Of a DNA stretch of 64,000 bases, positions 1,533 to 19,208 are shown piece by piece (the first letter of the stretch is position 1; every line of letters starts with the position of its first letter). The stretch is from positions 1 to 64,000 of the forward strand of contig NZ_BJZT01000003.1 of NCBI RefSeq assembly GCF_007992175.1, given 5' to 3'. A program made the translations under genes and the position numbers. The DNA comes from Methylobacterium haplocladii (lineage in GTDB: Bacteria > Pseudomonadota > Alphaproteobacteria > Rhizobiales > Beijerinckiaceae). The notes beneath the pieces were generated by a model that worked only from the letters and a program-made list of their open reading frames with translations, was not told the DNA's origin and made no database searches.

Positions 1533-4500
1533 CTACTCCGCCGCCTGGGGGAGGACGGGGCGTGCATGGGGACCATCCTTCCCGACGGTGGTCTTCACCG
1601 GGGCGAGGGCACCGGCAAAGCGCGCGTAGAGCGCCGGCAGGACGACGAGGGTCAGCAGGGTCGCCGAGATCAGGCCGCCGATCACCACCGTCGCCAGGGG
1701 GCGCTGGACCTCGGCGCCCGTCTCGGTGGCCAGCGCCATCGGCACGAACCCCAGCGACGCCACGAGGGCGGTCATCGCCACCGGCCGTAGCCGGGTCATC
1801 GCACCCTCCAGGATCGCCTCGCGGCGCGGCTTCCCTTCCGCGATGAGCTGCTTGATGTAGGTCAGCATCACCAGGCCATTGAGGACGGCCACCCCGGACA
1901 GGGCGATGAACCCGACCGCCGCCGGCACCGAGAACGGCATCCCCCGCAGCCATAGGGCCGCGATGCCGCCGGTCAGCGCCAGCGGGACCGCGCTGAACAC
2001 CAGCAGGGCGTCACGCGCCGAGTTCAGGGCCGAGAACAGCAGCAGGAAGATCAGGAAGAAGCACACCGGGACGACGACCATCAGGCGCTGGCGTGCCGAG
2101 GCCAGGTTCTCGAACTGCCCGCCCCAGGTCACGTAGTAGCCGGCCGGAAGCTGGACCCCGGAGGCCACCTTCGCCTGAGCCTCGGCGACGAGCGAGCCGA
2201 TGTCGCGGCCGCGCACGTTGGCCGTGACCACGACCCGCCGCCGCCCGTTCTCGCGAGAGATCTGGTTCGGCCCCTCCGTCACGGAGAAGCTCGCGACCTG
2301 CTTCAGGAGGACGGAGGACGCCCGACCGTTGACGCCCGGGGGCAGCGGGACCGGGATGTTCTCCAGGGCCTCGCGGTCCTCGCGGACCTTGTCGTTCAGG
2401 CGCACGACGATGGGGAAGCGGCGGTCGCCCTCGAAGACCATGCCCGCCTCGCGGCCGCCGATGGCCGCGCCGATGACGTCCTGGATCGCGGAGGTGCTCA
2501 GGCCGAGGCGCGCGGCCTCGACCTTGTTGATCTTGATCTCCAAGAACGGCAGCCCGGCCGTCTGCTCCACCTTGACGTCGTCGGCGCCCTCGGTCCCGCG
2601 CAGGATCGCGGCGACCTGGTTGGCGGCCTTGAGCATCGGCTCGAACTCCTCGCCGAACACTTTTACGGCGAGGTCGCCGCGGGTGCCAGCCAGGAGCTCG
2701 TTGAACCGCAGCTGGATCGGCTGGGAGAACTCGTAGACGTTCCCCGCAAGCGCCCCCACCGCCTTCTCGATGTCCTCCTGAAGGGCGGCCTTGGTCTGGT
2801 CCGGGTCGGGCCATTCCTCCTGCGGCTTCAGGATAACGAAGGTGTCGGACGAGCTCGGCGGCATTGGGTCGGAGGCGACCTCGGCGGTGCCGGTCTTGGA
2901 GAAGACGTAGGCGACCTGGGGGAATCGGCTGATCGCCTGCTCGACCTTCAGCTGCATCGCCTGCGACTGCGTCAGGGACGTCGACGGGATGCGCTGGGCG
3001 TTCAGCGCGATGCTCTTCTCGTCCAGCTGCGGGATGAACTCCTGCCCCAGCCCCCTGAACAGGAACCCGGCCCCGACGAGCAGCACCAGGGCGACCGCGA
3101 CGAAGGTCATCGGGATGCGCAGGGCCGCCCCGAGGACCGGGCGGTAGGCGGCCTTGATCCCGCGGATGAGGACGTTGTCCTTCTCGGTGACCCTGCCCGT
3201 GATGACGATGGCGATCATCGCCGGCACGAAGGTCAGCGACAGCACGAAGGCCGAGACGAGGGCGATGATGACGGTGAGCGCCATCGGCTCGAACATCTTG
3301 CCCTCGACCCCGGTGAAGGTGAGGAGCGGCACGTAGACGAGGATGATGATGGCCTGCCCGTAGAGCGAGGGCTGGATCATCTCCTCGGCCGAGGCGCGCA
3401 CGGTGACGAGGCGCTCCTCCAGGTCGAGCTTGCGCCCGAGCTCGGTCTGCCGCTCCGCCAAATGGCGCAGGGCGTTCTCGGTGATGATGACGGCGCCGTC
3501 GACGATGAGGCCGAAGTCGAGGGCGCCGAGGCTCATCAGGTTGGCGCTGATGCGGCCCTGGACCATGCCGGTCATGGTCATCAGCATCGCCACCGGGATG
3601 ACCAGCGCCGTGACGATGGCCGCCCGGATGTTGCCCAGCAGCAGGAACAGGATGACGATGACGAGGGCGGCGCCCTCGGCCAGGTTCTTGGCCACCGTCC
3701 GGATCGTGGCCTCGACGAGGAGGGTGCGATTGAGGACGGTCTGGACCTCGACGCCGGGCGGGAGCGTGCGCCGCAGCTCCGTCATCTTCGCGTCCACGGC
3801 GGCCGAGACCGTCCGGCTGTTCTCGCCGATCAGCATCAGGGCGGTGCCGATGACGACCTCGCGCCCGTCCTCGCTGCCCGATCCCGTGCGCAGATCGCGC
3901 CCGATCCGGACCTCGGCGATGTCGGAAATGCGGACCGGCACGCCGCCGCGGGTGGTCACCACGACGGAGCCGATGTCCTCCATGGTCTCAAGGCGGCCGG
4001 CGGCACGCACGACGTAGCCTTCACCGTTGTCCTCCAGGTAGCGGGCGCCCTGGTTGGCGTTGTTGGCCTCCAGCGCCCGGCCGATGTCGGCGAAGGACAG
4101 GTCGAGGGCGGTCAGCTTCATCGGGTCCGGCTGGACGTGGTACTGCTTGTCGAAGCCGCCAATGCTGTCGACGCCGGCGACCCCCGGCACGGTCTTCACC
4201 TGGGGGCGGATGATCCAGTCCTGGACCGTGCGCAGGTACGCCGTGCGTTCGAGCTCCGTCGCGAGCCGCTGGCCCTCCGGGGTCAGGTAGCTCCCGTCCG
4301 ATTGCCAGCCGGCCTTGCCGTCCGGGGAGACCTTGCGCTCCTTCGGCTGGGCGTAATGGATCGACCACATGTAGATCTCGCCGAGACCCGTGGAGATCGG
4401 GCCCATGTGCGGCTCTGCCCCCGGCGGCAGGGTCGACTTGGCCTCCCCGATGCGCTCGGCGACCTGCTGGCGGGCGAAGTAGATGTCGAGCTTCTCGGAG

Positions 4501-4790
4501 AAGACCGCGGTGACCTGGGAGAAGCCGTTTCGCGAGAGCGAGCGGGTGTATTCCAGGCCTTTGATGCCGGCGAGCGCGGTCTCGACCGGGTAGGTCACCT
4601 GCTTCTCGATATCGACCGGGGAGAGCGACGGCGCCGTGGTGTTGATCTGCACCTGGTTGTTGGTGATGTCTGGCACCGCGTCGATGGGGAGCTTGGTCAG
4701 CGAGAACACGCCGAAACCTGCCGCGAGCAGCGACATGAGCACCACGAGCCAGCGCTGGTGGACGGAAAAGTCGAGGATCTTCGAGATCAT
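1533..4790 (-). CDS. czcA: CzcA-type heavy-metal RND efflux pump
   Basis: A 1085-residue inner-membrane RND protein of the heavy-metal (HME) family, which drives divalent cations out of the periplasm or cytoplasm using the proton gradient. The first helix is at residues 14-32. The family signature LDFGLIVDGAVIITEN spans 424-439, with the acidic residues D425 and D431 that belong to the proton relay of CzcA-like pumps. The length is typical (about 1040-1080). It follows czcB by 11 bp and precedes a signal-peptide protein by 4 bp. No czcC-type outer-membrane gene is present next to it, so the channel must be encoded elsewhere. Zn, Co, Cd or Ni are the likely substrates. Confidence 0.95.
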   Translation of the reverse strand: MISKILDFSVHQRWLVVLMSLLAAGFGVFSLTKLPIDAVPDITNNQVQINTTAPSLSPVDIEKQVTYPVETALAGIKGLEYTRSLSRNGFSQVTAVFSEKLDIYFARQQVAERIGEAKSTLPPGAEPHMGPISTGLGEIYMWSIHYAQPKERKVSPDGKAGWQSDGSYLTPEGQRLATELERTAYLRTVQDWIIRPQVKTVPGVAGVDSIGGFDKQYHVQPDPMKLTALDLSFADIGRALEANNANQGARYLEDNGEGYVVRAAGRLETMEDIGSVVVTTRGGVPVRISDIAEVRIGRDLRTGSGSEDGREVVIGTALMLIGENSRTVSAAVDAKMTELRRTLPPGVEVQTVLNRTLLVEATIRTVAKNLAEGAALVIVILFLLLGNIRAAIVTALVIPVAMLMTMTGMVQGRISANLMSLGALDFGLIVDGAVIITENALRHLAERQTELGRKLDLEERLVTVRASAEEMIQPSLYGQAIIILVYVPLLTFTGVEGKMFEPMALTVIIALVSAFVLSLTFVPAMIAIVITGRVTEKDNVLIRGIKAAYRPVLGAALRIPMTFVAVALVLLVGAGFLFRGLGQEFIPQLDEKSIALNAQRIPSTSLTQSQAMQLKVEQAISRFPQVAYVFSKTGTAEVASDPMPPSSSDTFVILKPQEEWPDPDQTKAALQEDIEKAVGALAGNVYEFSQPIQLRFNELLAGTRGDLAVKVFGEEFEPMLKAANQVAAILRGTEGADDVKVEQTAGLPFLEIKINKVEAARLGLSTSAIQDVIGAAIGGREAGMVFEGDRRFPIVVRLNDKVREDREALENIPVPLPPGVNGRASSVLLKQVASFSVTEGPNQISRENGRRRVVVTANVRGRDIGSLVAEAQAKVASGVQLPAGYYVTWGGQFENLASARQRLMVVVPVCFFLIFLLLFSALNSARDALLVFSAVPLALTGGIAALWLRGMPFSVPAAVGFIALSGVAVLNGLVMLTYIKQLIAEGKPRREAILEGAMTRLRPVAMTALVASLGFVPMALATETGAEVQRPLATVVIGGLISATLLTLVVLPALYARFAGALAPVKTTVGKDGPHARPVLPQAAE

Positions 4791-4801
4791 GGCCGGCCCC
4801 C

Positions 4802-6208
4802 TCAGTGGTCGTGGTCGGCTTCGGCTTTGCCGAGCTCGGCCTTCAGGACGAAGGAGTTGGCGACCGCGACCTCGTCGCCGGGCTTGAGGCCGGACAGGAT
4901 CTCGAAGGCGTCGTCGTCGGCCTTGCCGATGGTCACGTCCCTGCGTTCGAACCCGTCCGGGGTGCGGACGAACACGACCTTCTCGCCGCCGATGGTTTGG
5001 ATGGCGGACTTGGGCAGCCGGACCGCGACCTTGTCCTGCGCGATCTCGACCTCGGTCGTGACGAAGGTGCCGGGCCGCCAGGTCATGTCCTTGTTCGGCA
5101 GGGCGACGATGACCCGGGCCGAGCGGGTCTCGGCGTTGAGGATCGGGCTGACGAAGACGACCTTGCCCACGCCGCGAGAAGCGTCGTCACCCCCGACGAT
5201 GGTGACCTTGGCGCCCTCCCGGACCTTCGACAGCTCGGTGGTCGGGATCGCGAGCTCGATCCACACGGAGGACAGGTCGGCGACGGTGTAGACGTCGGCC
5301 GGGTCGCCCTCCTTGCCGACGGCGGTGCCGACATCGACCTTACGCTCGACCACACGGCCGGCGAGCGGGGACTTAAGCTCGTAGCGGCGCAGCGAAGATA
5401 GGTTCGGGGTGGTTTCGTCCTTCTTGGCGGACGTCGCGACCTCGGCCGCGTTCAGCCCCAGGGCCGATAGCTTCTGGCGTGCCAGGTCGACCCGAAGTGT
5501 CGCCTCCGAGTAGGCGGCCTTGGCGTTCAGGAATGCGGACTCGGCCGAAATCCGCTTGTCCCAGAGGGCCTGCTGGCGGTCGAAGTTGGTCTTCTCCAGG
5601 TCCGCCTTTACCATCGCGGTGAGGAAGTCGCTCTTGGCCTCGGCGACCTCGCGGCTGTCGAGGACGGCCACGACCTCGCCCTTGGCGACCTCCTCGCCGA
5701 GGCGCTTGCGCATCTCGGCCACGGTTCCGACGACCCGCACGGGGACGCGAGCGATCCGGTCGGCATCCTGGGCGATGGTGCCGGGCACGAGAAGGTGTCG
5801 CGAGAGGATGCCGCCCGCGACCGTGGCGAGCTTGATGTCCTGCTCCGCGGCCTGCTCGGCCGTCATCTTGATCCTGCCCTCGCCCTCATCGTCGTGGCCG
5901 TGAGCCTCGCCCTCGGCGTGCTTGTGGCCACCGGCCTCGGGCTTGGATTCTCCCTCGGAGTGCCTGTGCTCGCTGGAAGGCTTGGGCTCTCCCTCCGCGT
6001 GCTCGCGGCCATGCTCGCCGTGACCGTGCCCATCGTCGGCTTCGGGTGTCGCGGGCTTGGTCATGGCAGCGTTCGTCGTGGGCGCCGTCCGGGGGCTGAC
6101 CAGGCCGGCGGCGGCAAGGGCGCCCTGCACGAACTCGGACACGCGGGGGAAGGCACCGCCGATCGCGATGCCGATGGCCAGGAAGGCCACGGAAAGGAAT
6201 GCACGCAT
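4802..6208 (-). CDS. czcB: CzcB-type periplasmic adaptor with His-rich N-terminal region
   Basis: A 468-residue membrane-fusion protein linking the RND pump to an outer-membrane channel. It has an N-terminal membrane anchor (residues 4-20), then a histidine- and acid-rich segment (about 58-110, many HGH, EHR and HKH groups) suited to binding or sensing metal. A coiled-coil hairpin follows (about 190-260), then the beta-barrel and membrane-proximal domains. The C-terminus ends in HDH. The His-rich insert is known in CzcB/CnrB relatives for zinc, cobalt and nickel. It lies 11 bp upstream of czcA and 142 bp downstream of a small Cys/His-rich exported protein. Confidence 0.93.
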   Translation of the reverse strand: MRAFLSVAFLAIGIAIGGAFPRVSEFVQGALAAAGLVSPRTAPTTNAAMTKPATPEADDGHGHGEHGREHAEGEPKPSSEHRHSEGESKPEAGGHKHAEGEAHGHDDEGEGRIKMTAEQAAEQDIKLATVAGGILSRHLLVPGTIAQDADRIARVPVRVVGTVAEMRKRLGEEVAKGEVVAVLDSREVAEAKSDFLTAMVKADLEKTNFDRQQALWDKRISAESAFLNAKAAYSEATLRVDLARQKLSALGLNAAEVATSAKKDETTPNLSSLRRYELKSPLAGRVVERKVDVGTAVGKEGDPADVYTVADLSSVWIELAIPTTELSKVREGAKVTIVGGDDASRGVGKVVFVSPILNAETRSARVIVALPNKDMTWRPGTFVTTEVEIAQDKVAVRLPKSAIQTIGGEKVVFVRTPDGFERRDVTIGKADDDAFEILSGLKPGDEVAVANSFVLKAELGKAEADHDH

Positions 6209-9686: not shown

Positions 9687-10106
9687 ATGCAGATTTCTAT
9701 CGGCGAGCTGTCGCGGCAAACCGGCGTAAAAGTCCCCACGATTCGATACTACGAGTCGGTCGGCTTGATGCCGGAGCCCCCCCGTACGACCGGCTCTCAG
9801 CGTCGCTACGGAGAAGCCGAGGTGGTGCGTCTCAACTTCATTCGCCATTCGCGCGAACTTGGATTTGAGGTCGATGCCATTCGGGAGCTGCTGACACTGA
9901 ACGCCCATCCGGAGCGCTCTTGTGCCGAAGTCGACACGATCGCCCGTCGCCATCTCGCTGAGGTCGATCGACGGATCGAGAAGCTTGAGGGATTGCGGGA
10001 CGAATTGAGCCGGATGATCGCGGAATGCGGCCAGGGCCGCGTCGGCGAATGCCGCGTGATCGAAACGCTGTCGGATCACGGCAAGTGTGCGGATGAACGC
10101 CACTGA
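9687..10106 (+). CDS. MerR-family metal regulator (ZntR/CadR/PbrR-like)
   Basis: A 139-residue MerR protein: winged helix at residues 1-70, dimerisation helix at about 80-112, C-terminal metal loop after it. The cysteines are C79, C114 and C122, the same three positions (79/114/119-124) that bind Zn, Cd or Pb in ZntR, CadR and PbrR; His131 and Cys134 could add ligands. It is divergent from the transporter cluster and its dyad lies in the 69-bp gap between them. Probable activator of the whole minus-strand cluster, responding to a divalent metal. Confidence 0.93.
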   Translation: MQISIGELSRQTGVKVPTIRYYESVGLMPEPPRTTGSQRRYGEAEVVRLNFIRHSRELGFEVDAIRELLTLNAHPERSCAEVDTIARRHLAEVDRRIEKLEGLRDELSRMIAECGQGRVGECRVIETLSDHGKCADERH

Positions 10107-10316: not shown

Positions 10317-11009
10317 TCATTCTTTCTTGCGACGATACCATCTGGTGCGGTCTTTCCTCGTCTCGCGCTCGAAATACTTCGTGTGGGTGACCCGAATGCC
10401 CATCTTCCTGTTGAGCGTGCCCCGCGACAGGGGAGCGCCATTGCTGATCGCTTGACGGGCCACGAACGGGGACAGGAGCTTGATCACCTCGCGATCCTGC
10501 ACCCAGACGTCCGGTGGCAGCACGCTCCCGATCTCGCGCATGACGCGATCCCAGAACTCCTCCGCCACGAGGTCCCCCACGCGCTCTCGCAGCTGCGCCA
10601 CTTCGGCTTCCAGCTCCGTTACGCGCGCCTTCGACAGCTCGGCCTCGCGTATGGCCACCTCCGCCTTCACGTAGGCCTCGTCCATCAGCTCGCGCGCGGC
10701 TTGACCCTCGGCTTCCACCTTTCGCCGTCTGTCCTCGAAACGTTCCGAGGCCTCGATCAGCGCGGCAGCCCAAGCTCGCCCCATGAATGCGGCGTGCTCG
10801 CTCTTGAGCCGGGCCGGAAACTCCTTGGTATCCAGCCTGGCATCGTACTGGCGGGCCGCTTTCCATGACAGGAGATGCGGGCCGACCGTGCGCGGCGACC
10901 TGCCCCGGAGTCGTCCTTGCAGGATCGCGATCACCCGGTCCTGGTTGACCTTCTCGCCCGCGCGATGGACCTCGTCCGCCGCCAGCCAGACTTCCTCTTC
11001 CAACGTCAT
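10317..11009 (-). CDS. KfrA-type DNA-binding protein with coiled coil
   Basis: A 230-residue protein starting at the ATG at 11009, which has a GGGGAGGGG ribosome site 6 bp before it; a GTG at 11027 would add six residues. The first 60 residues (VWLAADEVHRAG, then a GRSPRTVGPHL turn) match the KfrA N-terminal DNA-binding domain known from plasmids. Residues about 70-150 form a long charged coiled coil. The C-terminal 80 residues are a basic globular part ending in WYRRKKE. KfrA-like proteins are plasmid or element maintenance factors and autorepressors. It stands alone here at the left end of the accessory cassette. Confidence 0.75.
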   Translation of the reverse strand: MTLEEEVWLAADEVHRAGEKVNQDRVIAILQGRLRGRSPRTVGPHLLSWKAARQYDARLDTKEFPARLKSEHAAFMGRAWAAALIEASERFEDRRRKVEAEGQAARELMDEAYVKAEVAIREAELSKARVTELEAEVAQLRERVGDLVAEEFWDRVMREIGSVLPPDVWVQDREVIKLLSPFVARQAISNGAPLSRGTLNRKMGIRVTHTKYFERETRKDRTRWYRRKKE

Positions 11010-11082
11010 CGCCGGCCCCTCCCCCACGGGATATTAAGGCCGCCGCGCTCGACAATTCCTTAAGGGCCTGGAAGCGGAAAGC

Positions 11083-11103
11083 GGGAAGCGTCGTCTGCTT
11101 CCC
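11083..11103. repeat. Perfect 7-bp inverted repeat upstream of the KfrA-like gene
   Basis: GGGAAGC-N7-GCTTCCC, 75 bp upstream of the KfrA-like start codon. KfrA proteins bind inverted repeats in their own promoter region, so this is a reasonable operator candidate; it could also be a simple hairpin. Confidence 0.35.
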
Positions 11104-11215
11104 ACTTCCCCTCGTATTTCGTCTCGCGTCCCAGGCGCCGGCGCCCTGCACCGGGAACCACACCGCGAAAAGCTTAGGCAAACCCCCGCCCTGCCGTTAA
11201 CGATGTCGGCCATAA

Positions 11216-11234
11216 AGCTCTAGCTACTAGAGGT
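11216..11234. promoter_or_regulatory. Second MerR-like dyad, in front of the accessory cassette
   Basis: AGCTCTAG-CTA-CTAGAGGT is identical at 16 of 19 positions to the MerR dyad at 9654-9672. It lies 75 bp before the first plus-strand gene of the cassette, and a further inverted repeat, TTGCTT-N8-AAGCAA, follows at 11236-11255. I do not see a clear promoter with a 19-bp spacer around it on either strand, so it may be a binding site without activation or a relic of an older promoter. Confidence 0.4.
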
Positions 11235-11309
11235 TTTGCTTGATGGGGGAAGCAATCGTGGGGTACTATTGCCTCGTTAGTCCTCCCGGCATGCGTAATG
11301 GGGCCCGGA

Positions 11310-12134
11310 ATGAACATCGTATTCTTCGCCGATGACCCTTCGGCAGTCCACGCGTCGCTTCTTGCAGACTACGCCCTCAATCACCCCACCCCTCGCTGGC
11401 CGATGGCAGGTCCGGGTTTCCTGGCGGGGGCCGAAGCCCTCGCCGACCGCCTTCCCGATCGTCTGCAGGCAGCGTCGATGGAGGGGGGCACCCTGATCGC
11501 GGCGCTCCCGCTGCGGTTGCTCCAGACGCCTTCGATCCGCAAACGGCTCGACCTTGCCGTCGTCACCTGCGGTTCGGACCCGGAGTCGGCGGAACGTGCC
11601 GTCGACGCACTATCCTCGGACAGGAACGGATCCGCGCGTGGACTCCCGCCGGCTTGGTTGCTCCCTTGCCGGCGGCAAGCGTGGCCGGACCTGCTGCGCG
11701 TCCTTCCGACATCCGTCGGCGTACGGCGAGGGCGCGGTCTCGGCCACCTTCGTTCCGGAGGTCCCGCCGGCGCGACGGCCCGTCAGGCGCTCGGCTTGGC
11801 CGCAGCCCTCCTCGTCGCCGCGGAGGACCCCTACCTCCCCGCGCTGGAACCGGGGCAGGTCCTCGACATCCTGTCGGGCCAAACGACTGCGGCCGGCCTG
11901 TCGCTGCGCGCGAGGCTCCTCGACCTCGTCGCCGACCTAAACGAGCCGACCGACGAGGTCGTGCCCACCCGGTCGACACGGCGTCCCGGCGGGCGCGCGA
12001 CCATGCCGGCGTATCCTCCGCGAGGCACCGCATCGAGACGGGCGTCGAACGGGCTGCATCTACCGGAGGCGGCCCCGGACCCGGATCCTCGGCGGACGGC
12101 GCGACGCGTCTCGAAAACTTTCAGAGAACAGTAA
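11310..12134 (+). CDS. Unknown protein, possibly a degenerate ParA-like protein
   Basis: A 274-residue protein from the ATG at 11310 (an ATG at 11298 adds four residues). It opens with a beta strand and turn MNIVFFADDPSAVHASLLADY, where a ParA-type protein would have its P-loop, but no Gly-Lys-Ser/Thr is present. Later come two strand-like blocks, GGTLIAALPL and RLDLAVVTCG, in the order seen for ParA switch regions. The last 60 residues are Arg/Pro-rich and low complexity. It precedes a 108-residue unknown gene by 14 bp. The fold assignment is a weak inference; no nucleotide-binding motif can be claimed. Confidence 0.6.
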   Translation: MNIVFFADDPSAVHASLLADYALNHPTPRWPMAGPGFLAGAEALADRLPDRLQAASMEGGTLIAALPLRLLQTPSIRKRLDLAVVTCGSDPESAERAVDALSSDRNGSARGLPPAWLLPCRRQAWPDLLRVLPTSVGVRRGRGLGHLRSGGPAGATARQALGLAAALLVAAEDPYLPALEPGQVLDILSGQTTAAGLSLRARLLDLVADLNEPTDEVVPTRSTRRPGGRATMPAYPPRGTASRRASNGLHLPEAAPDPDPRRTARRVSKTFREQ

Positions 12135-12148
12135 TCGGAGGTACCGAT

Positions 12149-12475
12149 ATGACCTTACGTGCCGTCATCAGACCCGCGAAAGACACCGCCCCGGCGTACA
12201 TATCCGATCCCGGCCGGGGTCGCCGGACCCGGACGCATCAGGCCGAACGCGGTCGCGGGCGTCCGGCATGGCGAAGCGCCCAGGAGGGCAGCAGGACACC
12301 CCCTCCCCCCGCGGTCGTGCGGGATCTCGCGGAAGAGACCTTCGACGAGCCCACCGAGACGATGTGGGCGTCCGCGCTGCTCGATACCGACTTCGACATG
12401 GATGCCGATGACCTGCTGGCCGGCGCCACGAGCATTTACCGCGCGGTCAACGCTGAAGAAGGCGGTTGGGAGTGA
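12149..12475 (+). CDS. Small acidic-tailed protein of unknown function
   Basis: A 108-residue protein with an excellent ribosome site: GGAGGT lies 6 bp before the ATG at 12149. The N-terminal 60 residues are basic and Arg/Pro-rich. The C-terminal 45 residues are acidic (DLAEETFDEPTE, then DTDFDMDADDLL). This basic-then-acidic layout is seen in small DNA mimics, adaptors and antitoxin-like proteins, but no family is recognised. It follows the preceding gene by 14 bp and is likely co-transcribed with it. The next gene has its own promoter candidate. Confidence 0.65.
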   Translation: MTLRAVIRPAKDTAPAYISDPGRGRRTRTHQAERGRGRPAWRSAQEGSRTPPPPAVVRDLAEETFDEPTETMWASALLDTDFDMDADDLLAGATSIYRAVNAEEGGWE

Positions 12476-12598
12476 CCTGCGAGCCTCGGGAACCGCCGGC
12501 GTTGCCGGCAGATCGCGAGGCGACTTGCAAAAAATAGAGAAGGTCCTCGGCGAATTAACCAAGACATCAATGGTCCACTTGCCTTCACCACGATGTAC

Positions 12599-12628
12599 TT
12601 GCTAACAACAAAGGTTTCGTTCTATAAT
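12599..12628 (+). promoter_or_regulatory. Candidate sigma-70-type promoter
   Basis: TTGCTA at 12599-12604 and TATAAT at 12623-12628 with an 18-bp spacer, in a conspicuously AT-rich patch (about 12550-12655) of otherwise GC-rich DNA. It would transcribe the gene starting at 12711. The perfect TATAAT is unusual for this host and suggests foreign origin. Confidence 0.5.
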
Positions 12629-12710
12629 TCGCCATCTCATAAATTCGCGTCTATCGCTTCGCCCGCAGCCTCCCCCTGCGGCCGCGAACCCGTCGGCGCC
12701 TTTCCGGAGA

Positions 12711-13754
12711 TTGCGCTTGATCGTAGCTTTGTTCGGGGCGTCGGGCCGGACCGACGCCGCACACGCCTCCCTCATGCTGGTGGACGCCATTCTCGTCGAG
12801 GGCGGAGCCGCGCGGTTCGTCCGCGTGACGCTGCCGGGCGACGCGGAACTGCCGAAGCCGCAGTACCGGCCGGACGACCTCGTCGTCGTCCAGGCAACGG
12901 CGGCTGACGTTGGCGAGATCCGCGCCATCGTCGTCGAGGAAATCGCGGCGGCACGTCGATCGGAGGCCGACTTGGTGCTGGACCTGCCTGCCGCCTGCCT
13001 CGTGGAACCGGATGTCCTGGACGGGATCGAGGTGCCGGTCATCGTCGTCGGACCGACGCCCTTCGACGAGCATGCGGCGGCGTTCCTATTGCACGCCCTC
13101 GCCGAGATCCCGGTTCCTGTCGGCGGAAAGCTGCCGTGGCCATGGCTTCTCGGCTGCGGACGCGGGAATGCCTGCGCGGCGTCCGCCTTCGAGCGCGACA
13201 TGGGCCGCATCTCCTGCGGCATGGACATGGCACGTACGCCGCGGGTGTTCCCCGTGACCTGGCCGACGTTGAGCAAGGCGGAGGCGTTGCGCATCTTGGT
13301 CGGCGACCGAAGCGCCCGAACGCTCGCGCTGGGCCTGCCGCTTCTCGCGAGTCTTCGGGCCGCGCGGGAGAAACCCGATGCGCCTGCCATCGACGCCGGG
13401 AGCCTCGCTTCCGCTCCCGGCGCCGACGCGAACACGGGGAAGACGTCCCACCGGCGGGACGTCGGCGACCGTCTCCGGGATCTCGCCGATGCGCTGCAGG
13501 CGATCGAGGATTACGACGCCCCGACTCAGATCGAGCTCGATTGCGCTCCCCGGATCGAGGACTGGAAGTCGGCGCGCCGCGAGGTGCGCGTCGTGACCGG
13601 TCGCGTCTACGGGCACCCCGACATCGCGGACGGGCGCCCCATCGTGACCTCAGACCTCTACGCCTCGGACGGCACGTCCTGGGCGAGGACGCTTTCGCGT
13701 TACTATCGCCTCGGCGAGCCGGCCCGGGGCCAGGACCGACGCGACTTCCGTTAG
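12711..13754 (+). CDS. Putative ParA-like protein with a C-terminal DUF6634-like module
   Basis: A 347-residue protein with a TTG start at 12711 (TTG at 12717, with GGAG 7 bp upstream, is equally possible). The N-terminal part reads LIVALFGASGRTDAAHASLM, a strand-loop-helix like a ParA P-loop in which the catalytic lysine is missing; DLVLDLPAAC and VPVIVVGPTPFDE later fit switch strands. From about residue 225 the sequence changes: a helix (DRLRDLADALQAIE) and then TGRVYGHPDIADG, TSDLYA and ARTLSRYYRLGEP. I recognise that pattern from short stand-alone alphaproteobacterial proteins (DUF6634, from memory). A fusion of the two is unusual. Function unknown. Confidence 0.65.
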   Translation: MRLIVALFGASGRTDAAHASLMLVDAILVEGGAARFVRVTLPGDAELPKPQYRPDDLVVVQATAADVGEIRAIVVEEIAAARRSEADLVLDLPAACLVEPDVLDGIEVPVIVVGPTPFDEHAAAFLLHALAEIPVPVGGKLPWPWLLGCGRGNACAASAFERDMGRISCGMDMARTPRVFPVTWPTLSKAEALRILVGDRSARTLALGLPLLASLRAAREKPDAPAIDAGSLASAPGADANTGKTSHRRDVGDRLRDLADALQAIEDYDAPTQIELDCAPRIEDWKSARREVRVVTGRVYGHPDIADGRPIVTSDLYASDGTSWARTLSRYYRLGEPARGQDRRDFR

Positions 13755-13834
13755 CCGTCAGGCCCGGACCCCCGCCGAGCGCCTCCGTCCGAACGGCGGC
13801 GAGCGCCCCACCATGCCCATAGAACGGAGAACGC

Positions 13835-14296
13835 ATGCGCCCACACCGCGCCAACGATGCCGCGTGCGATCGCCGACGCAACGGCCATAAGCACTGCGAC
13901 GCCGGCGCGACCGTCGATCGGCCTCTCGAAGCGTGGCGCACCCTCGACCGTGAACGGATCGGGCCGGATGTCGTGGCGACGATCCGCCGTGCCCTCTTCG
14001 ATAGCGTCGCGATCCACGACGGACGCTGGCCCGGCGTCCGACGCGGCGACGCGGCGTCCGCGGTCGGGGTGGCCGTGCGCGTCCTCCGACGGCCGGGGCT
14101 TCCCTCGCCCGTCTGCGACATCGCGATGTCGGCGGTGCTGGTTCACGCCGTTACCGGCGACCCCGCCGCCGCCCTCGTGCTGGCGCACGGCCTCCAGCGC
14201 CTGGCGAGAGGACGCCGAGACGCCGCCCGGCTGAACGGCCGCGCACGACTTTGGGCCGCCGGAGCCTCGCGCGGCCCTCCAGACTCCCGCGCGTGA
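13835..14296 (+). CDS. Unknown helical protein
   Basis: A 153-residue protein; GGAGA stands 4-5 bp before the ATG at 13835. Residues about 35-125 look helical (RIGPDVVATIRRALFDS, then VCDIAMSAVLVHAVTGDPA and LVLAHGLQRLA). The ends are Arg-rich and low complexity. It lies between the ParA-like fusion gene (80 bp upstream) and the phosphoesterase gene (36 bp downstream) on the same strand. No family recognised. Confidence 0.5.
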   Translation: MRPHRANDAACDRRRNGHKHCDAGATVDRPLEAWRTLDRERIGPDVVATIRRALFDSVAIHDGRWPGVRRGDAASAVGVAVRVLRRPGLPSPVCDIAMSAVLVHAVTGDPAAALVLAHGLQRLARGRRDAARLNGRARLWAAGASRGPPDSRA

Positions 14297-14332
14297 GCTT
14301 CGAAGAAACGAGTCTGGATCGCCCGAACCAGG

Positions 14333-15133
14333 ATGGTGCATCGAATGCGGCTGTGGTTGTTCTCCGACCTCCATCTCGACCTTTCCAGGACGCCCTGGAC
14401 GCCGGAGGCTATCCCCGAGGCCGACGTCGCCGTCGTGGCCGGCGACATCGGCCAGGGGCTCGCGGACACGGTCTCGTGGCTCGCCGCGACCGTCCGGCCC
14501 GCGATGCCGGTGGTGCTCGTCGCCGGCAACCACGAGTTCTACGGCGGCGCGGTGGACGAGGAGCGCGCGCTCGGGAGGGAGGCCGCCAAGCGGCAGGACA
14601 TCGTCCTGCTCGACGACGAGAGCGCCGTCGTGGCCGGCTGCACCTTCAGCGGCTGCACGCTCTGGACCGACTATTCGCTCGACGGCGGCGAGGCGCGACC
14701 GGCCAGGATGTCGGCCGCGCTCCACGGCCTGAACGACCATCGCCGGATCGCCTCGACGCAACATCCCGCGTGGAGGAGGTTCTGGCCGGAGGACGCGCTC
14801 AGGCTCCACGACGCGTCCCGTCTATTCCTCGAAGATGCCCTGCTTCGCGTCGATCCGCCCGGCGGCCGCAGCCGACCGCACGTCGTGGTCACGCATCATG
14901 CGCCAAGCCCCTTGTCGATCGCCGCGGCCTACGCGGGAAGCGCGCTGAACGCGGCCTTCGCCTCGGAACTCGGCGCGTTCGTCCAGGCGGCGAGGCCCGA
15001 CCTTTGGGTGCACGGGCACACGCACGCCGCCTTCGACTACCGGCTCGGCGACACCCGCGTCGTCTGCAACCCCCGAGGCTACGAGGGCGAGCGGACGGGC
15101 TTCGCCCCCGGCCTCGTCGTCAACGTGGGCTGA
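14333..15133 (+). CDS. Calcineurin-type metallophosphoesterase
   Basis: A 266-residue metal-dependent phosphoesterase; the start may instead be the ATG at 14345. All five family motifs are intact: D12 and H14 (SDLHLD), D38 (GDIGQG), N66-H67-E68 (GNHEFYG), THHAPS, and HGHTH near the C-terminus, so a two-metal active site is expected. Substrate cannot be predicted; family members hydrolyse nucleotides, cyclic nucleotides, DNA or phosphoproteins. It stands 86 bp before the FtsH-like protease gene and has a degenerate paralog on the other side of it. Confidence 0.9.
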   Translation: MVHRMRLWLFSDLHLDLSRTPWTPEAIPEADVAVVAGDIGQGLADTVSWLAATVRPAMPVVLVAGNHEFYGGAVDEERALGREAAKRQDIVLLDDESAVVAGCTFSGCTLWTDYSLDGGEARPARMSAALHGLNDHRRIASTQHPAWRRFWPEDALRLHDASRLFLEDALLRVDPPGGRSRPHVVVTHHAPSPLSIAAAYAGSALNAAFASELGAFVQAARPDLWVHGHTHAAFDYRLGDTRVVCNPRGYEGERTGFAPGLVVNVG

Positions 15134-15219
15134 CGGCTCCGGTCCGACATCCGCCCTTTCCCGATCCATCCCGAACGCGCCGGTCCCGGAACCGTCGCGC
15201 GGCCAAACGCGGGCGAACC

Positions 15220-17154
15220 ATGCCAAGAGACGACCTCGCATTCTTCCGCCACGACATCGAAGACGAGCTGGCATCCTCCTCGGGCCGGTCCGGCATCCGC
15301 AGGCCGGCTCTGGAAACCCTTGCGGCCTTCGCCCTGGAAGACGCGGTACCGTCGGCGCTTCGCCGTCGCCTGGCGCGCTCGGGTTCCTTCGCCCTGGTGA
15401 TCGAGGTGCCGTCGGGCGACTGGGTCGAACCTGTCGCCAAGGCCAGCGCCGAGCTGGCGTCGTGGACGTATTCGTTCGCGCGATCCGGGTCCGCACGGAC
15501 GGAAGACAGACCGGAACGCGGCAACGACAAGGTCGCGGAGACCCTCGCCCGCGGCGGCAGGGTGGTCGGCGTGTCCCAGGCTCCCGAGCGCCTGCTTCCT
15601 GCGACGCTCGTTTCCGTCGCCGACGTTCGCATCCGTATCGGCCAACCGTCGAATGCCGTCGTCGCCCGCGTCATCCGGAGCGCCACCGGCGGCCGCCTTG
15701 GCCCCATGCCGCCACGCATCGCGGCGGGCCTGACCTATTGGGAACTCTGCGCTGCGGTCAGGGGCTCGCCCGGCACCATCGTCGATCGCCTCGCCGCGCT
15801 CGGGAACGCAAAGTCGGAGGCCGATCCGGGCGTCGCCGGCGCGCCGGCCTTCGGCGATCTCGTGGGCTACGGCGCCGCCCACGACTGGGGACTCCGTTTC
15901 CTCGACGACTTGGAGGCCTGGAGGCGGGACGAAATCCCGTTCGACCGCATCGACCGCGCGGTCGTGTTCGGGTCGGAGCCGGGACTGGGAAAGTCAAGCT
16001 ACGTCCGCGCATTGGCCAGGGCCGCCCGGCTGCCGCTGTCGGTCAGTTCCGTCTCGACCTGGTTCACGCAATCGAGCGGCTACCTCGACGGCGTCCTGCG
16101 CCAGATCGACGGGGTGTTCGAGAACGCCGCTTCACGCTCGCCATCGATTTTATTCCTAGACGAGATTGACAGTATACCGGATAGAAACACCCTGGATAGC
16201 CGAGCTAGAGAGTGGTGGAATACAGTAGTAACGCACATACTTTTGACTATTGATCGGGTTATGTCAGAGCCTTCTATCAATCTTTGTATCGTCGGCGCGA
16301 CGAACTATGCTGACAGGCTGGACGCCGCGCTCGTCAGGCCGGGGCGGCTGAACCGCGTGATCTTCATCGGCCCGCCGTCGGCGGCCGATCTGTCCGTGAT
16401 CGCCCGGCAGCACCTGGGCGACGACCTTGCCGGGCTCGACCTCGCCGTCTTCGGCGAGATCGCCTTCGGCGCCACCGGCGCCCAGGTCGCGGGCTGGGTC
16501 AAAGACGCGCGCACGGCGGCCCGAGCCGCCGGACGCCCCCTCCTGCTCGACGACCTCCTGCAAGCGGCCGCTCCCCCGGATACCCGGCCCCATGGTGTAA
16601 GATGGCGATGCGCGCTGCACGAGGCCGGTCATGCCGTCAGCGTCGAGATCCTCGGGACCGGGCATATCAAGCAAGTCGATATCGTCGCCCGGGCGTCGAA
16701 CGGCGGCGCCACCGCAATCGTCCCGAACGAGACCTCGATGCCGCTGAAGGACGACCTGGAGCGGCTGGTCGTGTCTTTGCTGTGCGGACGCGCCGCGGAA
16801 TTGGTGTTCCTGCGGGAGGCGTGCGGCGGCTCCGGCGGCGCGCGAGACTCCGATCTTGCCCGCGCAACAGCGCTTGTCGCCGGCGTCCATGGCTCCTTCG
16901 GCCTTGGAGGCAGCCTCGCCTACCTCGGCACGATGGACGACTTCGCCCGGGGGTTGCGTAACGACGGTGCCGCGCGGGCGGCGGTCGAGACCGACCTTGC
17001 CCGGCTCCAAGGCGAGGCCGTCAAGCTGATCGAGCATCACGCGGTTTCCGTGCGTACCGTCGCCGAGCGCCTGATCGCGCATCGCGTGGTCTCTGGCGAC
17101 ACGTTGAGGGCCATCCTGGCCGGATCGGATGCAGCCGGGGAGTGCCGCCCATGA
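15220..17154 (+). CDS. FtsH-like AAA+ zinc protease without membrane anchor
   Basis: A 644-residue protein from the ATG at 15220. Residues 1-220 are a unique domain with no transmembrane helix. The AAA+ module follows: Walker A GSEPGLGKSS (251-260), Walker B ILFLDEID (310-317), sensor 1 VGATNYADRLD and the arginine-finger stretch VRPGRLNR. A C-terminal M41 peptidase domain has the zinc motif HEAGH (467-471), the GRAAELVF helix, and D545 in SDLARAT as the likely third ligand. FtsH itself is membrane-bound; this form should be soluble. A low-GC stretch (16141-16290) covers Walker B to just before sensor 1. The last four bases overlap the next start codon, so the two products are translationally coupled. 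Confidence 0.88.
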   Translation: MPRDDLAFFRHDIEDELASSSGRSGIRRPALETLAAFALEDAVPSALRRRLARSGSFALVIEVPSGDWVEPVAKASAELASWTYSFARSGSARTEDRPERGNDKVAETLARGGRVVGVSQAPERLLPATLVSVADVRIRIGQPSNAVVARVIRSATGGRLGPMPPRIAAGLTYWELCAAVRGSPGTIVDRLAALGNAKSEADPGVAGAPAFGDLVGYGAAHDWGLRFLDDLEAWRRDEIPFDRIDRAVVFGSEPGLGKSSYVRALARAARLPLSVSSVSTWFTQSSGYLDGVLRQIDGVFENAASRSPSILFLDEIDSIPDRNTLDSRAREWWNTVVTHILLTIDRVMSEPSINLCIVGATNYADRLDAALVRPGRLNRVIFIGPPSAADLSVIARQHLGDDLAGLDLAVFGEIAFGATGAQVAGWVKDARTAARAAGRPLLLDDLLQAAAPPDTRPHGVRWRCALHEAGHAVSVEILGTGHIKQVDIVARASNGGATAIVPNETSMPLKDDLERLVVSLLCGRAAELVFLREACGGSGGARDSDLARATALVAGVHGSFGLGGSLAYLGTMDDFARGLRNDGAARAAVETDLARLQGEAVKLIEHHAVSVRTVAERLIAHRVVSGDTLRAILAGSDAAGECRP

Positions 17155-18089
17155 AGGGTCGCTTCGCATGCGCCACGGTAGGTCTCGACCGCGCAGACGC
17201 TGTCGTACCGAAGCATTCCGCACGGGGCGGCCTCCGGATCTGGGTCATGTCCGACATGCGGATCGACCGCAGGCCCCTCGCCATGCCCGATCCGCTCCCG
17301 GATTTCGACGCGTTCGTCGTCGCCGGCAACGTCTGTCCCGGCCTCGATGCGTCGCTGCGCTGGCTCGCCGACGCCCTCGACGGTCGCCAGGGCCGGCGTC
17401 CGGTGGTGCTAGTTCCCGGCAACGTCGAGTTCTGGGACGGACGGCCGAAGGACGAGAGCCTCCGGCGATGCCGCATCCTCGCCGAGGATCTCGGCATCAC
17501 CTTGCTGTCGGACACGGCGCTCAGGGTGGAGGACGGGAATGGTTCGGGCGTCCACTTCGTCGGGAGCACGCTCTGGACCGACTGGGCGTTGCACGGTCGC
17601 AAGGCCGCGACCCTGGCGCGCGGATATGCGCGCCACCACCACCGCGACAACGGCAGGATCGCGGTGGCCGAAGGCGTGCCCTACCGGCCCCACGACGCAG
17701 CGGGCGCTCATGCTCGGTCGCGCGCCTTCATCGAGGACGTACTGCTCTCGATCAAGGTAACCGCGCAAGGCTTCGGCCTGTCCCCGACGGCCCTCGTGGA
17801 GGACGTGCGGCCGGGTGATCGCGCCGTCGTCGTGACCCACCACGCGCCGAGCCGCGCCAGCCTGTGTTCGCGATTGTCACCCGATGCCTGCGAACCGTGG
17901 ATCTCGGCGGCATGCGCGTCGGACGTCGAGGACGTCATGAGGATGTGGGCCGCGCCCGCGGCCTGGATCCACGGGCACGTGCTGAGTCCAGCGGATTACG
18001 CGGTCGGACGATGCCGCGTGGTCGCGAACCCGCGTCCGCGGACCATCGGCACCGATACCTTCGACCCCGCTTTCGTCGTGGAGGTTTGA
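17151..18089 (+). CDS. Metallophosphoesterase paralog with degraded active site
   Basis: A 312-residue protein; the ATG at 17151 overlaps the protease stop (ATGA) and has GGGGAG about 8 bp upstream. It aligns over its length with the phosphoesterase at 14333-15133 (shared VVLVxGN, STLWTDW, RAFIEDVLL, VVVTHHAPSRAS and VVANPR blocks). The metal ligands are largely lost: SDLHLD became SDMRID, GDIGQG became GNVCPG, GNHEF became GNVEF, and HGHTH became HGHVL; only the THHAPS motif is kept. It is probably inactive and may act as a regulator, partner or substrate receptor for the protease or for the active paralog. Confidence 0.85.
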   Translation: MKGRFACATVGLDRADAVVPKHSARGGLRIWVMSDMRIDRRPLAMPDPLPDFDAFVVAGNVCPGLDASLRWLADALDGRQGRRPVVLVPGNVEFWDGRPKDESLRRCRILAEDLGITLLSDTALRVEDGNGSGVHFVGSTLWTDWALHGRKAATLARGYARHHHRDNGRIAVAEGVPYRPHDAAGAHARSRAFIEDVLLSIKVTAQGFGLSPTALVEDVRPGDRAVVVTHHAPSRASLCSRLSPDACEPWISAACASDVEDVMRMWAAPAAWIHGHVLSPADYAVGRCRVVANPRPRTIGTDTFDPAFVVEV

Positions 18090-18091
18090 TC

Positions 18092-18982
18092 TTGGAAACG
18101 TCCAACCAATGCACGCTGCCCTTCGTGACGCCGGCGCCGCCGGTGAACCGTTCCGACAGGCCCCGGCCGACGCCCGCGCGACTCCCGCATGGCTCCCCCT
18201 CGAACGAACCGCCCCGAAGGCTCCTGGTGCTGGATATCGAGACGGTGCCGGATGACGTCATGCCGGCGGATTGGCCCCCGGACAGGTTCCCGAAATGCGC
18301 CTGGCACAGGATCGTGGCGATCTCCTTCGTCGAAGCGGAGATCCGCCGGGACAAGACAACCGGGCTTGAGGAATACCACCTGGCGGCGTGTCGCAGCGGC
18401 GGCGCGGAGGGCTGGGACGAGGGACGCCTGTTGAGGGCGTTCTGGAAGTTCTTCGACGAGGGGGACTTCCGCGTCGTCACCTGGAACGGAAGGAGCTTCG
18501 ACATGCCGACGATCGTCGCGCGCTCGATGATGCACGGCATCTCGGCGGCGGCCTGGTACCGTCGCGGGACCAAGTGGGCGGGGTACGCCAATCGGTACGC
18601 GCCGGACTGGCATACCGACCTGATGGACATGATGGCCGATTTCGGCGCGACCCAGCGGCTGACGCTGGAGGAGGCCGCGACCCTGCTCGGGCTGCCTGGC
18701 AAGCTGGGCGAGCATGGCAGCCGGGTCGCGGCGATGGTCGCGGATGGCCAGACGGGCCGGGTGCGCGACTATTGCGAGACCGACTGCTTGAACTTGGCGG
18801 TGCTGTACGTCCGCTACGCGTTCCTGACCGGGAGGACCGGCCCGGAAGCCCACGACCGGTTCGTCGCGGGACTCATGGCATACCTCGAACGCGAACGGCC
18901 CGAACGCCCCCACCTCGGCCGCTTTTTGGACGGTTGGCGCGACAACGCCGAGCGGCGACCGCCGCTTGTGGCAATGCGGTAG
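18092..18982 (+). CDS. PolB-type 3'-5' exonuclease
   Basis: A 296-residue protein with a TTG start 2 bp after the previous stop and GGAGG 7 bp before it. After a 40-residue Pro-rich leader the DnaQ-fold motifs appear: Exo I LVLDIETVPDD (D48, E50), Exo II VVTWNGRSFDMP, and Exo III VRDYCETDCLNL. This is the pattern of the predicted PolB-related 3'-5' exonucleases (DNA_pol_B_exo2). The catalytic acids are all present, so nuclease activity on DNA or RNA ends is likely. It is the last gene of the cassette and belongs to the same translational unit as the protease and pseudo-phosphoesterase. Confidence 0.88.
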   Translation: METSNQCTLPFVTPAPPVNRSDRPRPTPARLPHGSPSNEPPRRLLVLDIETVPDDVMPADWPPDRFPKCAWHRIVAISFVEAEIRRDKTTGLEEYHLAACRSGGAEGWDEGRLLRAFWKFFDEGDFRVVTWNGRSFDMPTIVARSMMHGISAAAWYRRGTKWAGYANRYAPDWHTDLMDMMADFGATQRLTLEEAATLLGLPGKLGEHGSRVAAMVADGQTGRVRDYCETDCLNLAVLYVRYAFLTGRTGPEAHDRFVAGLMAYLERERPERPHLGRFLDGWRDNAERRPPLVAMR

Positions 18983-19030
18983 TGAGGCGGCCAAACGGAC
19001 CCCTCGGGTCGAATTCGGTAGCGGATATCC

Positions 19031-19070
19031 TGGGACTTAATCGACGCCCGATTGGGACTTGATGGGACTT
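19031..19070. repeat. Three direct repeats TGGGACTT beside tRNA-Ala
   Basis: TGGGACTT occurs at 19031, 19053 and 19063 (steps of 22 and 10 bp), between the last cassette gene and the 3' end of tRNA-Ala. An inverted repeat GGTTTT/AAAACC (19111-19132) lies between them and the tRNA. Repeats of this size at a tRNA 3' end are what integrase or excisionase arm sites look like, so this may be the attachment end of an integrated element. Confidence 0.45.
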
Positions 19071-19132
19071 ATCCGAAAATCCCGCCGACCTATCGCCCTG
19101 CGCGGCAACAGGTTTTCCGTTCGCGAAAAACC

Positions 19133-19208
19133 TGGTGGAGCTGAGCGGGATCGAACCGCTGACCTCCGCAGTGCGATTGCGGCGCTCTCCCATCTGAGCT
19201 ACAGCCCC
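19133..19208 (-). tRNA. tRNA-Ala (anticodon CGC)
   Basis: A 76-nt cloverleaf on the minus strand, including an encoded CCA at 19135-19133. The acceptor stem GGGGCTG/CAGCTCC contains the G3:U70 pair that identifies tRNA-Ala. The anticodon stem CCGCA/TGCGG encloses the loop ATCGCAC, giving anticodon CGC for GCG codons. The T-loop is TTCGATC. Its 3' end points towards the accessory cassette, the orientation used by integrating elements. Confidence 0.96.

Follow-up and report, generated by a model that had tools for sequence, protein, structure and literature searches.

A mobile gene cassette beside tRNA-Ala in Methylobacterium haplocladii as a candidate anti-phage or anti-plasmid defence system

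In the IetAS system, an AAA+ ATPase is tied to a protease and is found in defence islands. In BREX, an AAA+ motor goes with a phosphoesterase-type partner; BrxL is a Lon-like ATPase and PglZ a phosphatase. FtsH, represented by the equivalog model TIGR01241, has an AAA domain followed by an M41 peptidase. An additional FtsH-like gene is also borne on a mobile island, the transmissible locus of stress tolerance or of protein quality control (tLST/TLPQC) (PMC8290217). Defence cargo is common in Tn7-like elements according to another paper (PMC8649781), in whose main text the words FtsH and protease do not occur. The window analyzed here covers positions 1–64,000 of contig C3 in the Methylobacterium haplocladii genome (4.63 Mb in 103 contigs; genomes, contigs and loci are cited as G, C and L numbers). 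It contains a cassette of nine genes between a MerR regulator gene and a tRNA-Ala gene, with a KfrA-family gene on the minus strand followed on the plus strand by g2, g2b, g3, g4, the phosphoesterase gene MPE1, an AAA+/M41 protease gene, the second phosphoesterase gene MPE2 and an exonuclease gene. This cassette is probably a mobile, modular and undescribed anti-phage or anti-plasmid defence system; the defence role was suggested by gene association, and a lock-and-release mechanism is proposed. The bacteria that carry it on mobile DNA are methylotrophs of soil and plants. More tentatively, though it could well hold, we propose a new mobile immune class in which a constant core (a ParA-fold pseudo-ATPase fused to DUF6634, the live and dead phosphoesterases, and a DEDDy exonuclease) is served by a swappable AAA+ motor, a related M41 protease having been recruited into Tn7-like operons.

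The cassette differed from each of the described systems. The PADLOC model of IetA matched the window protease in the AAA domain only (4.6e-13), which does not amount to membership. The cassette peptidase is M41 and fused, it is accompanied by phosphoesterases and an exonuclease, and no S8 subtilase was matched in the eight window proteins scanned, so that the cassette was not assigned to IetAS. A true IetAS was found near a protease relative on plasmid pRapFH23a of Rhizobium acidisoli. The protease shared the domain order, catalytic residues and fold of FtsH; however, it scored 113 bits against TIGR01241, with a curated cut-off of 600, and showed no transmembrane segment, and it was therefore not placed in that equivalog. 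The cassette phosphoesterase, in contrast to its BREX counterpart, is of calcineurin type, and neither the BrxX/PglX methyltransferase nor PglZ was matched by Pfam in the eight window proteins or by PADLOC in six proteins of the cassette region. Several relatives of the cassette adjoin TnsB, TnsC or TniQ genes, as in Tn7-like transposons, whereas the cassette in the window is carried by an island at a tRNA gene whose integrase is of the tyrosine type. The first-pass annotation, which was made from the letters of the window, had named no system of this exact content, and none was found in PADLOC or, at the level of titles and abstract openings, in the open-licence literature; the latter held no paper on DUF6634.

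Defence genes around the relatives of the cassette

A tblastn search with the protease returned 16 plasmid records at 1e-30, of which 12 were examined and 10 were annotated (H1 and H16 were unannotated). The 12 were H1–H9, H12, H15, and H16; the site in H13, another Rhizobium leguminosarum record, resembled that of H7. The flanks covered 9 kb (H4, H8, and H15), 12 kb (H1) or 11 kb (all others), and less at record ends. A defence name was present near the protease relative in nine of the 10 annotated neighbourhoods compared with one of 10 control stretches from the same plasmids (Fisher p = 0.001; 0.003 for 8/9 vs. 1/9). The names comprised a methylase with a helicase of the type III kind (H2), ABC-three-component, ABC-3C (H3), Lit (H6), DUF1837 (Hachiman) with an N6 methylase (H7), IetAS and Kiwa (H8), an N6 methylase (H9), multiubiquitin/ThiF (H12), and abortive infection (H15), and none was found at H4. 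In H5, which is plasmid pCMU01 of M. extorquens CM4, two TIR genes and one SIR2 gene surrounded g3, g4, MPE2, the protease and the exonuclease. The only control with a counted name, also abortive infection, was that of the 45-kb H15 plasmid.

PADLOC confirmed complete pairs of HamA and HamB (2.6e-138 and 8e-220), KwaA and KwaB (4.3e-74 and 1.9e-122) and IetA and IetS (3.2e-67 and 7.6e-37), and the SIR2 protein of pCMU01 matched ThsA (1.4e-23). A second PADLOC scan covered 141 of 149 dereplicated neighbour proteins; the eight removed manually were four small proteins and four from the L120 stretch at its chromosomal end. Among the 25 of 28 matched families that were listed, NucC included, matches were traced to L132, L138, L124, and L133. 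The chromosomal cassette of Microvirga arsenatis (L132) had GajA and GajB of Gabija nearby (7.7e-137 and 8.8e-184), a ThsB-like TIR gene was located near the M. brachiatum cassette (L124), and the cassette of Methylobacterium sp. Leaf112 (L133) had PD-Lambda-3_B in its vicinity; the match at L138 was a generic SMC-like ATPase. The cassette was considered a defence candidate because its relatives sit among these known anti-virus genes. Thus, of the two roles envisaged by the first-pass annotation, defence or element maintenance, the former gained support from relatives in defence islands, and the latter kept some support from the Tn7-like operon order of other relatives. If the defence role is true, FtsH-type unfoldase-proteases join the enzymes of bacterial immunity. 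The question can be tested directly in methylotrophs, because copies are available on pCMU01 and in the type strain of Methylorubrum thiocyanatum.

Several points weigh against a defence role. The keyword list was fixed after the cases had been seen, and it partly depends on taking the gene names at H2 and H12 to signify defence. The controls were unevenly placed: eight lay ~100 kb away, that of H12 lay 50 kb away, and that of H15 abutted its case. They also contained toxin-antitoxin genes (H5 and H8), a Fic gene (H5) and a DEAD/DEAH helicase gene (H12), which were not counted, and the flanks of H7 and H9 were alike. The scan of the 141 neighbours ran without a control. No PADLOC system was traced in the window's own island, where the C3 genes to the left of KfrA were outside the scan and the neighbour results named families rather than individual members. 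None of 14 HsdS places in the genus, after half-domain rows had been merged by hand, was within 20 kb of a non-core protease, giving no chromosomal linkage to type I restriction-modification. Rhizobium plasmid loci had the protease, MPE1 and unknown neighbours, so that the full set of MPE1, MPE2 and exonuclease is not found at every relative. Finally, the operon-like order of protease and Tn7-like genes at five or six loci also suits a role in transposition.

A conserved core with an exchangeable AAA+ motor

Sixty-one genomes were compared, comprising the window's own, 36 of the same genus and 24 of the same order. Full-length g3 was found at 14 places, MPE2 (at least 46% identity) at 15, and the exonuclease (at least 50%) at 15. 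Within 10 kb of MPE2, g3 was present at 12 of the 15 places and the exonuclease at 13; MPE2 was in turn present within 10 kb of g3 at 12/14 places and of the exonuclease at 13/15. The misses counted from MPE2 and from g3 fell in G011 and G021, whose copies were scattered over several contigs, and those counted from the exonuclease were G020:C7:11418, which had one internal stop, and G021:C59, which lay beside a protease. The joint recurrence of the core genes at 14–15 places indicated a grouping beyond chance. The alignment searches scored at most 34 candidates per genome, and weak copies may escape such a search. In a collection of species genomes, the g3 alignment identified 33 loci, all in Methylobacterium, Methylorubrum or Microvirga; that scan relied on one peptide pattern, which distant copies can escape. 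On pCMU01, another small phosphoesterase replaced MPE1. The idea of a fixed functional unit built on protease, MPE2 and exonuclease therefore needed revision: a multi-gene set does recur, but the tightest unit was g3, MPE1, MPE2 and the exonuclease, and the protease was exchangeable.

The two phosphoesterases had different fates. Each of the 31 distinct MPE1 homologues retained all eight metal and catalytic positions (DxH, GD, GNH, H, and GHxH). MPE2 scored 18.4 bits, under the Metallophos cut-off of 21.5, and had lost calcineurin-type ligands, in agreement with its earlier description as degenerate. Among 27 distinct homologues of MPE2, the histidine of GNH and the second histidine of GHxH were retained in none and the histidine of DxH in two, and the first aspartate was retained in all 27. 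Its ratio of nonsynonymous to synonymous polymorphism (pN/pS) was 0.10–0.35 in six pairs, similar to that of MPE1 (0.15–0.49, six pairs), which indicates that the dead MPE2 is maintained by selection. The exonuclease scored 179 bits against PF10108, with a cut-off of 24, and its six DEDDy residues (DxE, N..D, and Y...D) were kept in 26/26 distinct homologues. Selection thus appears to act on catalysis in MPE1 and the exonuclease and on its absence in MPE2. These residue counts used tblastn pieces of more than 100 bits and more than 200 residues for the phosphoesterases and of more than 200 bits for the exonuclease, and they left out the weak exonucleases of L058–L063 and fragments. Among L122–L124, the exonuclease was only 52–60% identical, whereas MPE2 was 81–96% identical, which is a sign of module swapping. 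PADLOC placed the first 106 residues of MPE1 weakly near PDC-S10, a phage-defence-candidate model (3.1e-11), without membership.

The first-pass annotation had described the protease as soluble, and no 19-residue segment of the window protein exceeded a Kyte-Doolittle score of 1.43, with maxima of 1.38–1.71 in 15 other proteases. Residues K258, E315, R373/R376/R379, H467-E468-H471, and D545 were invariant in 16 of 16 proteins. The predicted model (pLDDT 86.3) had FtsH as its best Foldseek match (4.0e-23). The N-terminal domain was considered as a candidate dead AAA domain, but a comparison of its profile with that of the AAA domain in the same protease yielded a probability of 22% and an E-value of 0.00095 over 48 columns, and the idea was not adopted. 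The possibility that the gene is the core ftsH was rejected: core FtsH is encoded separately in the same genome (G000:C29), and the non-core places had E-values up to 1.3e-45, with the next matches starting at 3.2e-27. The non-core family comprised 45 places, namely the window's own and 44 others, and an MPE gene, a g3/DUF6634 gene and an exonuclease gene were within 5 kb of 18, 24, and 17 of them, respectively. Accordingly, the expectation that the protease travels with the phosphoesterases and the exonuclease held only in part, because it often stood without the cassette; the family nevertheless consisted of non-core paralogues and not of the conserved chromosomal FtsH.

A quick tree was built from 44 protease rows. 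Complete cassettes fell on two separate clades of it and needed two state changes, compared with nine for Tns neighbours and seven for MPE. The labels were assigned by hand; L048, L051, L077, and L085 were outside the set, five plasmid proteins were added, and three rows were taken out: L084, which was cut, L070, which nearly duplicates L069, and L090, which repeats the window. The gene order was MPE1-protease-MPE2-exonuclease in the window's clade and MPE1-MPE2-protease-exonuclease in the other. At G019, G032, G021:C33, and G011:C25, the protease slot was occupied by a Lon-like AAA+ ATPase of ~595 amino acids, in which Pfam detected AAA-type domains and no peptidase. The same replacement was seen at named Methylobacterium, Methylorubrum and Microvirga loci (among them L132, L134, L138, L140, and L150), and L133 and L141 carried both motors. 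The AAA+ motor is thus exchangeable, being a soluble M41 protease of either clade or a Lon-like ATPase. Since an ATPase in which Pfam detects no peptidase can replace the protease, the shared step appears to be unfolding and not proteolysis.

From the pairing of an enzyme and a pseudoenzyme with a shared unfoldase, we speculated that the cassette works by lock and release. The effectors would be MPE1 and the exonuclease. MPE2 would bind MPE1, or else the effector assembly, and serve there as a lock or recognition subunit. The products of g2 and g3, with DUF6634, might act as adaptors through which the AAA+ ring receives a signal of infection. Upon infection, the ring would extract MPE2 or another inhibitor from the assembly and, where M41 is present, degrade it; freed MPE1 and exonuclease would then destroy nucleic acid or nucleotide, and either replication of the invader would fail or the cell would be arrested. 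If so, a pseudoenzyme kept across species beside its live twin offers a clear test case of lock and release, in a naturally modular system with a swapped motor.

The first-pass annotation had described g2 and g3 as a ParA-like pair, which stood for the fold of g3 only. Residues 1–219 of the g3 model (pLDDT 79.7) adopted a ParA/MinD fold (VIA Z 18.1 to FleN and 17.9 to ParF; against 5j1j_B, Z 18.1 and rmsd 2.8 over 206 residues), and a Pfam scan of g3 found no ParA family at an E-value of 1. The deviant Walker A motif of ParA/MinD is KGGxGKT; GKS or GKT was absent from the first 40 residues of 9/9 g3 proteins, and none was seen by eye in five g2 proteins. A ParA partition pair of ATPases was therefore ruled out by the missing P-loop. 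For g2 there was no Pfam match, and only weak hits to g2 genes were obtained with the g3 alignment, such as that at G028:C14:33853 (7.4e-10). The constraint on g2 was also weaker, with pN/pS of 0.51–0.62 in three pairs. Small open reading frames (ORFs) like g2b, with a similar acidic ending, were seen by eye in the same position at L042, L043, L051, and L078, and tblastn matches to g2b were weak, the best beyond the window's own copy having an E-value of 0.06. The shared position and ending of these ORFs make g2b look like a genuine small gene.

Shorter arrangements were observed on other plasmids. On Rhizobium plasmids (L154:7858-11828 and L157:10218-15388), a 198-aa protein, an AAA/M41 protease, MPE1 and a 160- or 277-aa protein formed a short version close to known defence systems, which is a candidate minimal unit. 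On a Falsirhodobacter plasmid (L155:1469-4506), an AAA/M41 gene, a DUF6634 gene and a short phosphoesterase-like ORF stood in a row, so that such a trio is present outside Hyphomicrobiales.

Transposition, addiction and stress as alternatives

The strongest alternative, although we consider it unlikely, is a module for maintenance or transposition of mobile elements, in which a recombinase or a repressor is the substrate that the AAA+ protein remodels or destroys, and the exonuclease and phosphoesterases tidy DNA ends. ClpX acts in this way on MuA. Among 33 TniQ places in the genus (one of them under the curated cut-off; a G037 match with eight stops was excluded), 13 had a non-core M41 protease no more than 20 kb away, and one lay near core FtsH. 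Uniform placement, a model that takes no account of the clustering of mobile DNA, would give 0.29 for the non-core proteases. At L049, L050, L052, L053, and L055, the genes followed the one-strand order c6-protease-c10-c9-TnsB-TnsC/TniB-TniQ. At L048, c6, the protease, c10, TnsB and TniQ were matched, and the other two genes were assigned by position. The names came from L049 (PADLOC TnsB, 3.5e-15; Pfam TniB, 2.6e-10, and TniQ, 2.9e-12); c9 occupies the position of TnsA, and Pfam does not name it so. The order was kept even though TnsB was only 26–80% identical to that of L049 at the four other full loci. Element maintenance was kept as a reading because of these operons, in which the protease is possibly a transposition-coupled unfoldase. 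TnsB was also located downstream of the type-1 cassettes at L043, L044, L078, and L122–L125, and in Microvirga (L132 and L134) TnsB, TnsC and TniQ were located upstream of the cassette.

However, the annotated plasmid copies stood among defence genes and had no Tns names, and Tn7-like elements often bear defence cargo (PMC8649781). Serine recombinases were found near the cassettes at G018, G028:C65, and G021:C33, and a tyrosine integrase was found in the window's island. The carriers of the cassette are thus mobile elements of mixed kind (Tn7-like, serine and tyrosine), and the presence of unrelated recombinases indicated a cassette without a fixed recombinase partner, which counts against transposition. 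Taken together, the plasmid islands, the variety of carriers, the swapping of modules and the presence of nucleases are best explained by defence cargo. Transposition or maintenance best explains the Tns operons, and this protease family may have been put to that further use; one unfoldase family would then connect immunity and transposition. Among the protease relatives, those at L076, L077, and L080 (and partly L084) adjoined a conserved gene of 240–277 aa (c32), and a tandem pair of large serine recombinases was found nearby at L076, L077, and L080.

A toxin-antitoxin-like addiction of the island is improbable. MPE1 or the exonuclease would be toxic, MPE2 or g3 antitoxic, and the protease would set the lifetime of the antitoxin, which fits the enzyme/pseudoenzyme pair, the protease and the operon overlap; addiction and defence also overlap in practice. 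However, eight plus-strand genes are unusually many for such a module, and some cassettes have an AAA+ motor other than a protease. A function in heat, oxidative or metal stress is slightly less probable still: an island that combines metal-efflux genes with an FtsH-like peptidase resembles tLST, which has an extra FtsH (PMC8290217), but no sHsp, Clp-type or Trx gene and no tLST gene was found among the scanned cassette proteins, the cassette lacks chaperone and stress genes, its partners are a nuclease and phosphoesterases, and no membrane anchor is seen in the protease of the window.

Attachment site, island and gene layout

The 3′ end of tRNA-Ala (19130-19157) was repeated over 27 of 28 bp at G000:C2:130807-130834 on the same strand, where a search for a tRNA gene found none. 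A tyrosine integrase (PF00589 at C2:131822-132268) was located on the element side of this repeat. From the repeat and the integrase, the island most likely extends from C2:130807 to C3:19133, at least ~50 kb, with C2 and C3 presumed to be joined. The nine window genes are probably the distal end of this mobile island, and the proposed closeness of the cassette to an attachment site found support in the repeat next to the integrase. The tRNA-Ala gene was present in 18/18 relatives whose site was retrieved. In G009, taken as Methylorubrum thiocyanatum DSM 11490, a related cassette with proteins 44–70% identical was located at the same tRNA, and the end of its exonuclease gene lay ~140 bp from the tRNA compared with 150 bp in the window. 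A search of a phage collection gave no match at 1e-15, and hence no sign of carriage by phages.

The features are listed in Table 1. The layout agreed with the first-pass annotation in the nine genes, eight of them on the plus strand; in the 4-bp overlap of protease and MPE2 (protease stop at 17152-17154, MPE2 start at 17151); in the 2-bp gap between MPE2 and the exonuclease, which starts with TTG; and in the families, which Pfam identified as KfrA_N, Metallophos (MPE1), AAA with Peptidase_M41, and DNA_pol_B_exo2. The spacing among the plus-strand genes ranged from -4 to 241 bp.

Table 1. Features of the cassette and its borders (positions in the window).
Feature	Positions	Strand	Basis
MerR regulator	9687..10106	+	
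KfrA_N-family DNA-binding protein, 236 aa	10317..11027	-	Pfam PF11740 4.5e-9
g2, short conserved protein of ParA-like type	11310..12134	+	homologues upstream of g3 in L042, L043, L051, L078
g2b, 108-aa small protein, acidic C-terminus (LLDxDFD...EExxW-like)	12149..12475	+	ORF comparison by eye
g3, ParA/MinD-fold pseudo-ATPase with C-terminal DUF6634	12717..13754	+	DUF6634 5e-7; predicted fold
g4, small protein	13835..14296	+	cassette homologues in L042, L043, L044, L051, L075, CM4
MPE1, intact calcineurin-type phosphoesterase	14345..15133	+	Metallophos 1.6e-13
AAA+/M41 metalloprotease, soluble, FtsH-like without membrane anchor	15220..17154	+	AAA 1.6e-19, M41 2.5e-14
MPE2, pseudo-phosphoesterase paralogue of MPE1	17151..18089	+	metal ligands gone
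DEDDy 3′-5′ exonuclease, related to PolB exonuclease domain	18092..18982	+	PF10108 1.1e-52
tRNA-Ala(CGC), probable integration target	19133..19208	-	ARAGORN and Rfam; right-hand att copy at its 3′ end (19130-19157)

Homologues of KfrA were found near the protease at some relatives only (L045, L047, L049, and L075), and the protein is probably regulatory or a mere neighbour. The island cargo included RND and cation-efflux genes, the MerR regulator, a Tle1-like gene (PF09994), a BrnA-type antitoxin gene and a DUF4062 gene. There were two RND-type (Czc-like) efflux operons, one in each contig part of the island (window 1533-6208 and L041:6942-11605). The Tle1-like gene (L040:17703-18866) adjoined a segment (17346-17510) that was 58% identical to the C-terminus of KfrA from the same island. 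PF09994 is also called DUF2235, and on pCMU01, too, a DUF2235 gene comes after the cassette.

The cassette protease of M. thiocyanatum (L120/L051, G009:C6:327275-329175) was in two overlapping frames and was broken within the AAA domain; the gene may be truly split or decaying, or the break may be an error of sequencing. In three relatives (G008:C1:4480050 / 4507348, G004:C10, and G003:C50), the core ftsH gene was located ~26–28 kb from the flank of tRNA-Ala(CGC).

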